From positions 37,907,001-37,971,000 of the forward strand of contig NC_068560.1 of the NCBI RefSeq assembly GCF_022201045.2: a DNA stretch of 64,000 nt, written 5' to 3'. This document shows positions 31,758 to 42,396 of this stretch, one piece after another (the first letter of the stretch is position 1; every line of letters starts with the position of its first letter). Origin of the DNA: Citrus sinensis (lineage: Eukaryota; Streptophyta; Magnoliopsida; Sapindales; Rutaceae). Under the pieces are notes generated by a model. The model did no database searches. It was not told where the DNA came from and saw nothing but the letters and a program-made list of their open reading frames with translations. Both the position numbers and the translations under genes were made by a program.

Positions 31758-35942
<4,185 letters not shown>

Positions 35943-36380
35943 ATGCAGATGGAAACCAAAGATAAAAAATCAAGTGCTAATATCGAGTATATATAATAAA
36001 GCCAGTAGCTGGCAGAATCTCATTCTCAAAAGTTCTGTAAATTGAGCTGTATCGTCGCATTGATATCAGCCCATGCCTTCTTCTTCATGTCAATAAAAAC
36101 TAAATTTGCCACAAAGGTGGTTTTCAGAATAACTGGCAAGTTTTAGTAGTGCCTACTATTTACTTACCTTGGAAACAGGTCTTGGATTTTAGAAAAGAGA
36201 ACCGGAATTATCAGATTAACCCTTGTTGTTTTGGGAAATAACATTATTTCAAAACAATTTATCATTTGCGCATTTTTATCCCCAACCTTATTAACAAAAA
36301 TTAACAAATTTATTTATATATTCGATCGAAGTCTAGCCCCACTATATAATATAAAAATTAAAAACATGAAGAAGTGACTC
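35943..36380. other. CPK29-like 3' UTR and gap
   Basis: An AATAAA-like signal (AATAAA in TATAATAAAGCC near 35995 and CAATAAAAAC near 36090) follows the kinase stop codon. The rest is AT-rich and ends at the target-site duplication of the next element. Confidence 0.4.
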
Positions 36381-36802
36381 GTTAAAAAGGGTAAATTTCA
36401 TGGTATCTCTTTATTAGATTGATTTATTTTAACTTATCCTCAAAAAGTCTGAAAATTTTAATTTATCTCCTAAAATCTATTAAATTTAACTATTGATCAA
36501 TTTTGACTCAATTGAAATACGATAATACCCTTATTAATTATAGAATAGATTATCTCACTATTCTACCTATGTTAGAGAGATATCTCTTATACCATAATGT
36601 TTCTAAAATAAAATTAATTCAGAGTTTATCTGCATCACTAACAAAATCACCCTTCAATCTCTTTTTTAGAGAATAAAAAAAATCTCAATAATACATAATT
36701 TCATGTTAACCCCACCAAAAATCACTTTAAAATCTCTTTTTATGCACAGTTACAAAGAAAATCCCACCCTCAATCCATGAAGATTATCAAATTTAATAAA
36801 AA

Positions 36803-37337
36803 AGGGTTATTATCATTTCACTACTTTAAAAATTATAAAATATCAAATGACTGTAACAAGTATTGTCTCTTATTATTTTTCTACTATATCTTTACAAAAA
36901 TATCATTTTACTATTTTTCCGTTATAAATGTTAGTTGACCAGTTAGTTGACTAATAAAATACCAATTTCACCCTTCATGATTAAAAAAGAACTTGAAACT
37001 TATTTACAAAATAGATTTATAATATATTTATTAAAATGGATATAAAATACCAACATAATTTTTTTTGTTGGAATTATGATATATGGATTATAAATTTGTC
37101 TTATTATTATTTTTTAATTATGAAGGGTAAAATTGGTGTTTATTAATCAACTAATTGGTCAACTAACGGGTCAACTAACAGTTGTAATGGAAAAATAGTA
37201 AAATGATATTTGTTGTAATGGAAAAGTAATAAAATGATATTTTTATAAAAATATAATAGAAAAATTATAGGAGACAATACTTATTGTAGTCATTTGATAT
37301 TTGACAATTTTGAAAGTAATGAAATGATAATAACCCT
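36803..37337. mobile_element. Palindromic MITE nested in the MULE
   Basis: Begins AGGGTTATTATCATTTCA and ends in the reverse complement, flanked by a perfect 8-bp duplication AATAAAAA (36795-36802, 37338-37345). The arms are about 190-250 bp with ~85% identity, so the element can fold almost completely. One arm has a ~32-bp internal duplication built on AATATCATTTTA, GGAAAAGTAATAA-type sequence. It is 535 bp, with no coding content. Because both flanks lie inside the MULE, it inserted after the MULE. The superfamily (hAT versus MULE-like) is not settled by an 8-bp TSD alone. Confidence 0.88.
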
Positions 37338-37529
37338 AATAAAAAATTATAAGTTTTGAAATAAAAATCTCAAAATTTATAAAAAAGAAAAAATTTCTCT
37401 TTTTTCTTCATCTTTTTCGTTCCATTCCCTATTCATCTTCTTCTTCTTCTTCGTTCAGTTTTTTCTTTCCTCTTTCACACACTTAACAACTCCACAACCA
37501 CTTTTAATCCAAATCAGTCTAGCAAAACT

Positions 37530-37700
37530 CATGTCCATTGCCCGGCAAAACCCAACCATGCCGGGCAAAATCCATGGCCGTGCACAGCCATGCCAAGCAA
37601 ACACCATCCCAAGCAAAAACTATAACCGTGTGCGACCATTCTAAGCAAGCCCGTGGCTAATGGTCGTGCACGGCCATTCCAAATAAGCCTGTAGTCAAAT
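37530..37700. repeat. GC-rich degenerate tandem repeat inside the MULE
   Basis: Repeated phrases GGCCGTGCACAGCCATGCC, GGTCGTGCACGGCCATTCC, CCATGCCGGGCAAAATCC and CCAAGCAAAAACTATAACC, units of ~20-50 bp, much richer in GC than the rest of the element. The short minus-strand frame over it is not a gene I recognise. Confidence 0.55.
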
Positions 37701-37998
37701 GTGGCTCCAAACTTCGCCGTGAGCTGCTGTCGTGGATGTTGTGGCACTACGATGCTTGGAGAAGATAATGTACAAATATAATTTTACCCTTTCTATCGTT
37801 TGAACTACGGGGTAAGTTATATGGTTTGACTTATATGGTTTGACTACATACTTTTGAAGGTAAATTAAAATTTATTAATCTAATAAGGGGGTAAGATGAA
37901 ATTTACCCCGTTAAAAAACGTCTAAAACTCTCCTGTCTACAACATAAGCGCATTTTGTTTACATTCCATTAAGATTGGGAGATTGGCGACAAAAAAAA

Positions 37999-40678
37999 AT
38001 GACGATGCTCTCCCTTAACTCTGCATCGTGGGGCTCTGCTTCTTGCACGAAAGGTCTTCAATTTTCACCAACAAAAATCCCATTTGGTGTTTTCAAAATC
38101 CTCAGAGCTCGATGCTCTTCCAGTTCTAGCGGCGGCAATAATCGAGAGCCCATCGCCAATTATGCCGGCGTTCAATTAGAGGAAACAGTCGATACGAAAG
38201 CGGGGAAGCTGAGGCTTGACGCTTGGATCTCTTCTCGCGTTGATGGAATTAGTAGAGCTCGAGTTCAATCAAGTATCCGTTCTGGCCTTGTTTCTATCAA
38301 TGGACAAGTTGTCAGTAAGGTCTCTTTTCTTCTCTTTCTGGACTTACCTTCAATTATTTTTTTTATTATAATATTTATAATGAAAGCTGGTGGATTTTTA
38401 ATATTTTTGATTAAATGATTGTTGACTTGACTGATCAGGTTTCACACAATGTCAAGGGTGGGGATATGGTGAATTGCACTATTTCGGAATTGCAACCTTT
38501 AAGGGCTGAAGCTGAAGATATACCTTTGGATATTGTTTATGAAGATGATAATGTACTGGTTGTTAACAAGCCTGCCCACATGGTGAGCATCATTTTTGTT
38601 ATTATTATTATTATTGTTATTGTTATTATTATTTCTAAATAAACAACCACTACGGTACCCCCCACAAAAAAAAAAAAAAGAACGAAAAGGAAAAAAAGGT
38701 ATTTTTAGGATTGTGGTGTTGTGGGCATAGCTTCGGCAGAATAGAAATTTGGATTGAGCTGCTGTATCTTATCTTTCAATTTTTAAGTTATTGTAAATCA
38801 CTAGCTATCAAGTATATGTGTGAGTGAGGGGTTAGTAAAATTGACTAATAGAAGTGAATATTTACCGGACATTTACAAATGTATCCTTCATTCTATGTTT
38901 CTTATCAGGTTGTTCATCCTGCACCAGGCAATGCTACTGGCACACTTGTAAATGGAATTCTTCACCATTGCAGTCTTCCGACCCTTGCATCTTCAAATCA
39001 GGAAGCTTTTTCAGATGCAGAGGATATTTCTGATGATGAAGAGTTCAGTTCTAGTATAAGCGGGGCATCCATTCGCCCTGGGATTGTACACAGATTGGAC
39101 AAAGGCACCAGTGGATTGCTTGTTGTTGCAAAGGTGATTTTTTCCCCATTTGGTAACCACTTTTAACAAGCAAAACATAATCTATTTAAGGTTGCCCTCT
39201 GTATTGCATGTCCATGGCAGGACGAACACTCTCATGCTCATTTATCAGAACAGTTCAAGCTACATACTATTGAGAGAGTGTACATTAGTCTTACATCTGG
39301 AGTGCCCTCTCAATCTTCTGGCCGTATTGAGGTTCCAATTAGTCGTGATCCAAACAACAGGATTCGTATGGCTGCTATACCTGGATCAAATAAACACGGA
39401 CAGGCACGCCATGCTGCTAGTAGGTGATTTATGGTCCTTCACCTTTTTCTGTTTGATATTTGCAATAAGTAGCATTCTTGACGGTAGTTGGGATTTTCTT
39501 TTTCCAGTGTATTGGTTGTTCTTAACAGTTGAGTGTATTTAGACCTAGTGAGTGAGGTATATGCTGTATGAAGTCTATGAACCATTGAGAAAAGAGTATG
39601 GCGGAGGGATTCCAACAACTTCAATCTGGTCGGATCATGACAGTGTGGTTTTGCATTCTTCCATTGGCTTTGCTATGATGGTTGCATGGAATTTAATCCT
39701 TAGGATCTATCAGTCTGAGTGTTCAAGTTTCCCCTTTGACATTTACGATAGTGAAACTTGGACACTCAGACCGATAGAAAGTAGGTCCAAATGGGGCATG
39801 TGTGCTTGTTTGTGTTCTATAAATTTACTTCGATAAGATTTTTCTTACCAAGTATCCTGCCTACATTTCAACTTGTGCATTTAAGATATCACATTTACAA
39901 TGTAGACTCCTTTTATGTTTCTTCAGTTTTAAATTAGTTTGTTCATAAGAGTTGATGAATTCCAAATGTTTTCCCAAGTTATGATGCATGTTTATTAAAT
40001 TTGGTTAAACTTTTATCAGGTATAAAGTAATTGAAATTCTTGCTGGTGGTGGTTCTGCGTTGGTGGAGTGGAGATTGGAAACTGGGCGTACTCATCAGGT
40101 ACTCATGCTTTACAAATTGTTCTATATCCCAAGGATGATAAAAGTGTTTTGAATGTGTTTGCTTATCATTTTTCACATAATTTACTTTCACCCAGCTGTT
40201 ATATTGCTTCATCAAACCTCTGTGAACCCCAATTATTGAAGGCTTGACTCTTTTGTTTCACATTCAATCCTTGGGTTACAATCTTTGTAGTAGATTCGTG
40301 CACATGCCAAATACATGGGAATTCCTCTATTAGGTGATGAAGTGTACGGAGGGACAAAGAACATGGCCAAGTCATTGCTTCAGCCCAGAACTGCACCCGG
40401 CTCCCACGGAAAAGTTTTGAAATTGGTTTCTGGATTACAGAGGCCTTGCCTCCATGCCGTTGCTCTTGGGTAAAGAACAAAGCTCATCTCTGTGTCTGTT
40501 TTCCTTTTGTACATGCCTCCAGCATTTTATACAGAAGTTTTGTTACCAATTCTTTTGTAGGTTCACTCATCCACACACACGGGAAAAGATACAATTTTCA
40601 TGTCCGCCACCGGCAGATTTTGCCGAGATTTTGAGCCAGCTACGGGAAATTGGTACAGAGAAGTTATCATCAAACTAG
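37999..40678 (+). CDS. RluA-type RNA pseudouridine synthase 2, chloroplast-predicted
   Basis: Isomerises specific uridines in RNA to pseudouridine. Seven exons join in frame: 37999-38319, 38439-38582, 38909-39133, 39221-39423, 40020-40098, 40294-40469 and 40561-40678; 421 aa. A Ser-rich N-terminus (~1-50) looks like a plastid transit peptide. An S4-like RNA-binding domain ([31 protein letters not shown]) precedes the RluA catalytic domain. The catalytic motif is [18 protein letters not shown] with the essential Asp in HRLD; other conserved stretches are [28 protein letters not shown] and [16 protein letters not shown]. It matches Arabidopsis At1g76050 (pseudouridine synthase 2) in memory and in map position next to CPK29. 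The promoter space is unusually short because of the transposon 5' of it. Confidence 0.94.
39707..39777. repeat. Intronic hairpin in the pseudouridine synthase gene
   Basis: 25-bp arms (39707-39731 and 39753-39777) are complementary at 23 of 25 positions with a 21-nt loop, in the fourth intron. CTATCAGTCTGAGTG pairs with CACTCAGACCGATAG. There is no clear transposon border. It could be a MITE scar or a small-RNA-like hairpin. Confidence 0.7.
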
Positions 40679-40957
40679 CTACTTCAGATATTGTTCTCAA
40701 TTACTTGGGAAGTGGCTTACAACACAAGTTGGAGTTCAATGATTGTGAATATTTTCAGAATCAATCGTGAACGTAGGGCTATTTCCACCTTTTGGCAAAA
40801 AAATCTAGAAGAATGAATTATGAGTTCAAAGCGTCAACGGCTTAAAAAAGAATAATATATATATATATATAGTTAATCTTTAAAAGTCAGTTGTTTATAT
40901 TCTTTTAATTGTTATCAGTAAAAACTCAAGTACAAAAACACGACAGCATAAGAACTT

Positions 40958-41045
40958 TCACAAGAAGCAAAGTCGCAAGCTACTTTCCTAAGTGTTTGTG
41001 AAAATACAAAATCACAAGAAGCAAAGTCGCAAGCTACTTTCCTAA
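40958..41045. repeat. 34-bp perfect direct repeat
   Basis: TCACAAGAAGCAAAGTCGCA and the next 14 bases occur at 40958-40991 and again, identical, at 41012-41045 (54-bp period). It lies just past the pseudouridine synthase 3' end. Confidence 0.9.
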
Positions 41046-41098
41046 TGGGTAATTTTTAAGGATCTTTTCTGAAATTTGCCGTATTAACATCTAAATAG

Positions 41099-42396
41099 AG
41101 GCAAAGCTTATGTTACATTATATGTAACAAACAGCCAATGCATATGGGTGGTTAGATTTTGATATTTCTTAATCTAATGGATGAAAATAATTTTAACCTA
41201 AAATGAGGTATGGGTGTAATAGCTTTTTACAAAAAATTTTGTTTTGAATCACATATTTACTTATTTTTTCAAATAAGTCCTCATTAATTTTGTATAACTA
41301 AATGATTTTGTTAACCATCTCTTCTACATTTATTCTTAAAATTTTTAAAAGTTTTTACTATATTTTTATAAAGATCTAAATAATTATCATATTCATAAAG
41401 GTTTATAAATTCTGAATATATATTTGCACATGCATTTATAATTTCTTATCTCTCCTGAGAATAAACTAGATTTTTTTTCTTATATATATATATATAATCT
41501 AAATTTAGCATCTTGAATTATAAGAGATATTAAATGTCATAAATATATTATGACTCTAATAAATTACTAGAAAGATGTTACAATGAATAAATCATTAGAA
41601 CCTCTAATAATTTTACAAAATATATAAACTAATAAGTTACCACATTCTAACTATATACAAAGAGGATTTTCTTATGAAAAATTTTAATCATTTGATCCAA
41701 TCAATAATTCAGACATGCGGGAAAATAATCAATTAAATTGAATTTCACTATATTTATAAATAAATTTACGTTCCAAATTTATTTATAAATGAAATAGAAA
41801 AAGCAAACGATACCATATTCTAGCTATATACGAAGAGGATTTTCTTATGAAAGATTTTAATCCTCTGATCCGATCAATGATTCGGACATGCGGGAAAATA
41901 ATCAATTAAATTGAATTTCGCTATATTTATTAAATAAATTAGGAAACCCAAATTTATTTATAAATGATATAGAAAAAGCAAATGAAATGTTAGAAATTAA
42001 TAATTTTAATAAAAAAAATATAAAACAAATTAAAAAGTTAGAAGATCAAATGAGTAAAAAATTTAATAAAGTTAAACAATTAATAAAAGACTTCAACATT
42101 GAAGATAATGATATATTAAAGTAAGAAATCATTAATATAATGAATAAAAACTCAATAAATATAAGATTAAACAAGTTAGAGATTCAATAGAATAAAAACT
42201 TGGCACTTAATTTGCTATAAATATAAATGAAAAACTTAAAAAAAAAATTGAAGTACAATTGCAGTGCAGCTTGGTTGTAGCTTGGGGTTTAAAATAAAAC
42301 TTTAAAACTTATTAACTTTTTCATAATTATTAACTTTTCTGAGGATTCAAATATTTATAACTGTAACGTACAGTTGATGTAAGATAAGCTTTGCCT
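41099..42396. mobile_element. TIR element with internal duplication, family not resolved
   Basis: The left end AGGCAAAGCTTATGTTACAT and the right end, reverse-complemented, AGGCAAAGCTTATCTTACAT match at 19 of 20 bases, and TGTAAC-type bases follow on both sides. No clear target-site duplication is visible. The ~1.3-kb body is AT-rich and contains two copies of a ~173-bp block (from 41641 and from 41814) and, around 41960-42130, a lysine-rich coding-like remnant (KLEDQMSKKFNKVKQLIKDF). I do not recognise the source of that remnant, and the element looks non-autonomous and old. Confidence 0.6.
41641..41985. repeat. ~173-bp direct duplication inside the TIR element
   Basis: Both copies share CTATATAC(A/G)AAGAGG, ATTTTCTTATGAAA, GGACATGCGGGAAAATAATC-type sequence and an AGAAAAAGCAAA end. 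Identity is about 88% by eye. The second copy runs straight into the coding-like remnant. Confidence 0.75.

Follow-up and report, generated by a model that had tools for sequence, protein, structure and literature searches.

Two nested Mutator-type elements directly upstream of an RluA-family pseudouridine synthase gene in Citrus sinensis

Introduction

From where is a gene transcribed when two transposons, one nested in the other, separate its start codon from what was probably its promoter? This question is raised by a stretch of 64,000 nucleotides from the genome of Citrus sinensis (C5:37907001-37971000, hereafter the window), in which a Mutator-like element (MULE), itself carrying a palindromic miniature inverted-repeat transposable element (MITE), ends 90 bp before the start codon of a gene for a pseudouridine synthase of the RluA family. 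An earlier note on this DNA had described the MULE with a perfect 9-bp duplication, the near-complete hairpin nested within it, a readable order of insertion, an element end about 90 bp from the start codon and a pseudouridine synthase gene behind it. In the following, we show that these points hold, that the duplication around the MITE is longer than had been stated, and that the promoter or leader may, as far as sequence can tell, lie partly in transposon DNA.

Genome searches covered the 299.7-Mb assembly of 11 contigs, in which copies of the two families are referred to by locus number (L033 and so on). One primer pair for a clementine EST-SSR (PMC2435559) matches this assembly convergently at C5:38433546-38433780, with 0 and 1 mismatches and 235 bp apart (published observed size 204/236), in keeping with Citrus or a very close relative; of a second pair, one primer matched exactly and the other had no match even when 2 mismatches were allowed. 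Coordinates without a contig name are positions in the window, and features lie on the plus strand unless stated otherwise.

Results

The outer element (36389-37908) measures 1520 bp including the nested MITE and 977 bp without it. It lies between two identical copies of the target-site duplication CGTTAAAAA (36380-36388 and 37909-37917; 9/9 bp) and is bounded by terminal inverted repeats (TIRs) at 36389-36445 and, on the minus strand, at 37852-37908. The two TIRs are 81% identical over 57 bp, and their first 13 bases, GGGTAAATTTCAT, are the same when read inward from both ends. These ends belong to a family: a 34-bp TIR pattern, with up to three mismatches allowed, had 21 matches in the genome, the right end of the window element being one of them, as opposed to none for the reversed control. 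Likewise, searches with the arms matched 41 stretches for the left one and 55 for the right one, the latter extended by the start of the gene; both counts include the window and several stretches per place. The best 10 full copies are 80-82% identical to the window MULE, and seven other copies with both ends placed are 0.9-2.9 kb long, that in L034 having a decayed left end. Because no transposase was recognized when the longest frames of 19 loci were judged by eye (no family search was run on these frames), we take the outer element, on the evidence of its sequence, to be a non-autonomous MULE.

The inner element (36804-37336) is a palindrome of 533 bp, whose ends GGGTTATTATCATTT are free of mismatches on both sides. 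It is flanked by the perfect 10-bp duplication TAATAAAAAA (36794-36803 and 37337-37346; 10/10 matches), of which the previously described 8-bp duplication, AATAAAAA, is only a part. Nearly its full length folds into a hairpin with a minimum free energy of -213.8 kcal/mol (z -19.1), a stability that none of 100 shuffled sequences reached. With longest internal frames of 53 and 44 residues, it is non-coding, and it is shorter than 800 bp and multi-copy, recurring in at least 41 other places of the same genome; this count is a lower bound, as 40 of 255 candidates were scored. No Rfam family matched positions 35000-42000 at the gathering thresholds.

Two other identities were weighed for these elements, one for each. 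The sequence AATAAAAA does flank AGGG...CCCT in the window, as would be expected if the MITE were of the hAT type and had duplicated 8 bp, but the family speaks against this assignment. When 40 loci were fetched and the ends were fixed at GGG...CCC, a perfect 9- or 10-bp duplication was found in 26 of 42 rows, the window included, whereas ends placed one base further out, at AGGG, gave perfect duplications of 8, 9 and 10 bp in only five, one and one of these rows. Of the 41 sequences entered, L087 did not yield a pair. Ends in L063 were mispaired in two of the 42 rows, and the other two copies at that locus were missed. Furthermore, the base beside GGG covaries with the duplication (for instance in L065, L068 and L074) and is thus part of the target. 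The longer duplication under GGG ends across the family (26/42, against 5/42 at 8 bp) argues that the inner MITE is of the Mutator type, judging by these copies, and we rejected a hAT origin, which is hardly conceivable. For the outer element, the stretch 37400-37780 resembles a leader or exon in composition, with a C/T-rich part followed by a repeat-like part richer in G+C, which might point to a Pack-MULE that has captured part of a host gene. We regard this as very unlikely, given that in seven aligned family copies the stretch recurs in the form of degenerate repeats that conserve no frame and that searches with it, many of whose matches were left unopened, identified no host parent.

The order of the two insertions can be read from the outer family. 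All ten copies that span the site of the MITE (L033-L042) lack it; ten further loci (L043-L052), whose matches end short of the junction, were left out. Two of the spanning copies are altered near this site, L040 (C3:4771500-4776500) by a tandemly duplicated segment of some 130-150 bp that ends at it and L038 by a small A-rich insert, neither of which is the MITE. These empty sites are paralogous copies in one genome rather than orthologous sites. The uninterrupted state of the paralogs indicates that the MITE inserted second, that is, the MULE came first and the MITE then entered it. We hold the anatomy of the nested pair and this order with high confidence.

The MITE family offers some further observations. 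The arms within a copy are on average 86.5% alike, compared with 86.1-87.6% between copies, and in only one of 40 copies is the closest arm a copy's own; there is thus no sign of gene conversion, and a homogenization of the arms was dismissed. At L063 (C5:3368700-3371500), three copies follow one another in the same orientation (C5:3369225-3371011). The copies in L054 and L058 (C3:48497400 and C3:49849800), about 1.35 Mb apart, are 99.8% identical and have identical flanking bases, so that a segmental duplication is a more probable origin than two separate insertions.

The gene behind the nested pair (37999-40678) has a complete and intact reading frame of 421 residues, starting with the ATG at 37999 and distributed over seven exons, with splice signals and frame assigned by eye. 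Its predicted product is a pseudouridine synthase of the RluA family: it matches the RluA subfamily profile TIGR00005 with 252.8 bits (cut-off 192.7) as well as the Pfam families S4 and PseudoU_synth_2, its best solved relatives are RluD, and it contains HRLDKGTSG, an instance of the family motif HRLDKxTSG. Transit peptides often have no acidic residues, and, by eye, none was seen among the first 49 residues of the predicted product; this transit-like N-terminus suggests a plastid protein. Intron 4 contains an inverted repeat (39706-39778) of 26 nt, 92% complementary and with 21 nt between its arms, which is possibly another small MITE.

The ATG lies 90 bp beyond the end of the MULE and 81 bp beyond that of the right duplication, so that 81 nt of host DNA (37918-37998), free of upstream ATGs, remain in front of it. 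On the other side of the MULE, a gene on the same strand, with an EF-hand-like end as judged by eye, stops at 35942. The interval from this stop to the ATG amounts to about 2.06 kb today and to about 527 bp without the MULE (528 bp in the leader computation, in which the last base of the stop was counted in), and the promoter was therefore short. When the host flanks are joined, three TATAWAW motifs in the left flank (36315, 36343 and 36350; together 36315-36356) come to lie 155, 127 and 120 bp before the ATG, and a transcription start some 30 bp beyond the two nearer ones would hit the insertion point. Since the joined flanks form a short promoter with TATA motifs at these distances, the site at which the MULE inserted was probably close to the transcription start.

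The MULE family also possesses a promoter-like core of its own. A TATAAAA motif (37378-37384) that points to the gene, 41 bp downstream of the end of the MITE, is followed by a pyrimidine-rich tract (37395-37480), the best 60 nt of which consist of 87-97% C/T in all 11 family members. TATAWAW is found at the aligned place in nine of the 11, eight times at an offset of 93-96 and in L038 at 108, behind the small insert; L034 lacks it, and in L035 it is displaced. Within a zone of 76 nt, it occurs in 10 of the 11 members, with 0.48 expected from shuffles of a longer region, which mix A+T-rich and pyrimidine-rich parts and thereby understate chance. Shared descent accounts for part of this conservation. 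The 10-bp segment 37373-37382 ranks at the 96th percentile, the segment that begins at 37378 reaches no more than the 75th, and several others rank higher.

Discussion

We propose that a non-autonomous MULE entered the short promoter or leader of a nuclear RluA-family gene, seemingly close to its transcription start, with a duplication of 9 bp, and that a palindromic Mutator-type MITE later entered the MULE, with a duplication of 10 bp. The old TATA motifs would thereby have been moved to about 1.65-1.68 kb from the ATG, with numerous upstream ATGs and a hairpin of high stability in between. Transcription would now most likely begin in the last 100 bp or so before the ATG, where the right end of the MULE would supply the DNA just upstream. 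As citrus MITEs generally do, the hairpin probably gives rise to, or is targeted by, 24-nt small interfering RNAs (siRNAs). Leaders that begin further away, at about 36375 or, below the TATA motif of the MULE, at about 37410, contain 31 upstream ATGs together with the hairpin and 12 upstream ATGs, respectively, while the last 102 nt (37897-37998) contain none; for this reason, we assume that transcription starts there today, with roughly even chances of being right. The earlier note held that promoter and leader must partly lie in, or have been replaced by, transposon DNA. The counts of upstream ATGs do suggest, as far as sequence can tell, that they lie partly inside it.

Other starting points have to be considered. 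The core promoter of the MULE family might have taken over the gene, to which it is oriented: its TATA motif is aligned in nine of the 11 members and exceeds expectation in the 76-nt zone, and a pyrimidine tract follows. It may perhaps be a remnant of the promoter of an ancestral transposase gene. We nevertheless consider such a takeover unlikely, since it would imply a leader of 589 nt that is somewhat structured (z -3.45) and has 12 upstream ATGs, all with frames that fail to extend into the gene. No transposase was recognized by eye behind the motif in the copies that were read, and shared descent and the mixed composition of the shuffles inflate the signal of a TATA segment that reaches just the 75th percentile. 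Rather improbable, too, is a continued use of the ancestral TATA motifs, with the MULE now residing in the 5' leader or being spliced out as an intron. These host motifs are intact and lie 30-65 bp before the left duplication, but without splicing the leader would measure about 1.6 kb and include 31 upstream ATGs and the hairpin of -213.8 kcal/mol, and a crude scan of 37701-37998 gave no acceptor-like YAG. Finally, the nested pair might have replaced the promoter altogether, with a start in MULE DNA, be it the right end or the MULE's own core, and with expression tied to a methylation of the MITE directed by siRNAs. This full scenario strikes us as doubtful. If it were true, the locus would be a natural and long-lived parallel to Mu-suppressible alleles, in a gene that probably serves the modification of organellar rRNA.

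Several observations weigh against a start in the last 102 nt and against parts of the history from which we derive it. The host TATA motifs could have arisen by chance, as such a motif was found 100-180 bp before the ATG in 102 of 1000 shuffles. Leaders of plant genes can hold upstream open reading frames, and the leader models considered here were judged by their upstream ATGs. Splicing was assessed through a crude motif scan, which found one donor-like site and no YAG with G, A or T as the next base in 37701-37998. In the outer family, the duplications elsewhere are mostly decayed, with one mismatch in 9 bp in L035, two in L037 and three in both L041 and L042, and no clear 9-bp duplication is seen in L034, L039 and L051. 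Because of this decay in the seven other copies, the 9-bp duplication of the family rests mainly on the window copy. In the inner family, three of the 26 perfect duplications (L057, L080 and L089) are simple repeats and thus little informative.

Similar constellations are known. Maize Mu1 in hcf106 was reportedly described by Barkan and Martienssen in 1991 as a case in which transcription can start near the end of the element. There, too, a Mutator element sits at the 5' end of a nuclear gene, one that serves the chloroplast, as the gene in the window probably does; the window element differs in its nested MITE. In rice, PMC4178011 places a MULE-like sequence 0.4 kb upstream of OsPsbS1, in a 2.7-kb region, and proposes that it affects expression. 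As here, a MULE-type insertion lies upstream of a nuclear gene whose product belongs, in the window probably, to the plastid, but the window MULE, 1.5 kb long, is only 90 bp away. Maize Mu insertions favour sites near transcription starts, according to PMC2774946. For citrus, PMC6466647 lists 110 MITE families, 82 of which are Mutator, and describes the Mutator-type ones (DTM) as shorter than 800 bp, mostly amplified in a single burst, densest in promoters, and associated mainly with 24-nt small RNAs; for citrus MITEs in general, these small RNAs peak at the MITE ends. The inner MITE resembles these in size and type; it is not the possibly active DTM63, which, as given there, ends in GGACTTG/CAGGTCC and is about 150 bp long. 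The citrus element CitMule, as described in PMC4334395, is about 6.9 kb long, with short degenerate TIRs and 9-bp A+T-rich duplications. It shares with the window MULE the Mutator-like nature, the 9-bp duplications and, towards the 5' end, stretches of TC, but encodes a transposase, which the window MULE does not show. In a literature search with the TIR strings, an 11-letter string alone was matched, by papers whose titles named neither citrus nor transposons, and a second search found no citrus paper combining MULE, insertion, 5' untranslated region, promoter and TATA.

In this company, the locus represents clear yet ordinary plant transposon biology, one of many insertions near plant genes. 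Its value lies in the clean steps by which a promoter was invaded, from host leader to MULE to hairpin MITE, with each target site still readable and the second step backed by paralogous empty sites. Should transcription of the gene indeed begin inside the MULE, nature would here have turned the end of a transposon into the promoter of a housekeeping gene.

The window MITE differs from its family majority by 7.7% (family mean 7.4%, 39 copies) and the window MULE by 13.5% (mean 12.4%, 11 copies); L058 was omitted from this estimate, as it repeats L054 including the flanks. At the rate given in PMC6466647, these values correspond to upper bounds of 13.7 million years for the MITE and 24.0 million years for the MULE, compared with a beginning of Citrus speciation roughly 8 million years ago in PMC7145672. 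Against older dates, both duplications in the window are perfect, and the share of perfect duplications in the inner family (26 of 42) translates, when calculated by hand, into a divergence of only about 2-3% per site. The MITE may thus be roughly 4-14 million years old. Since the family divergence allows insertions that predate the Citrus radiation, an empty site may exist only outside Citrus, and its absence within Citrus would not refute the insertion, which is possibly older than the genus.

We also looked for an autonomous partner of the two families. A scan for MULE domains gave 899 candidates, of which 150 were scored. Around these scored domains, neither family is clearly enriched: two of the 61 listed outer places (0.92 expected) and none of the 51 listed inner places (0.77 expected) lie no more than 15 kb away from one. 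As an individual candidate, L093 on C6 was rejected. There, TIRs of the outer family bound a MULE relative of 7.3 kb (C6:9332500-9340000) that is filled, as judged by eye, by a Copia-like retrotransposon, and no transposase was recognized when its frames were read by eye. MULE transposase domains as such are abundant in the C. sinensis genome, with 899 candidates in total, and many of the 150 that were scored lie in open frames of at least 700 residues.

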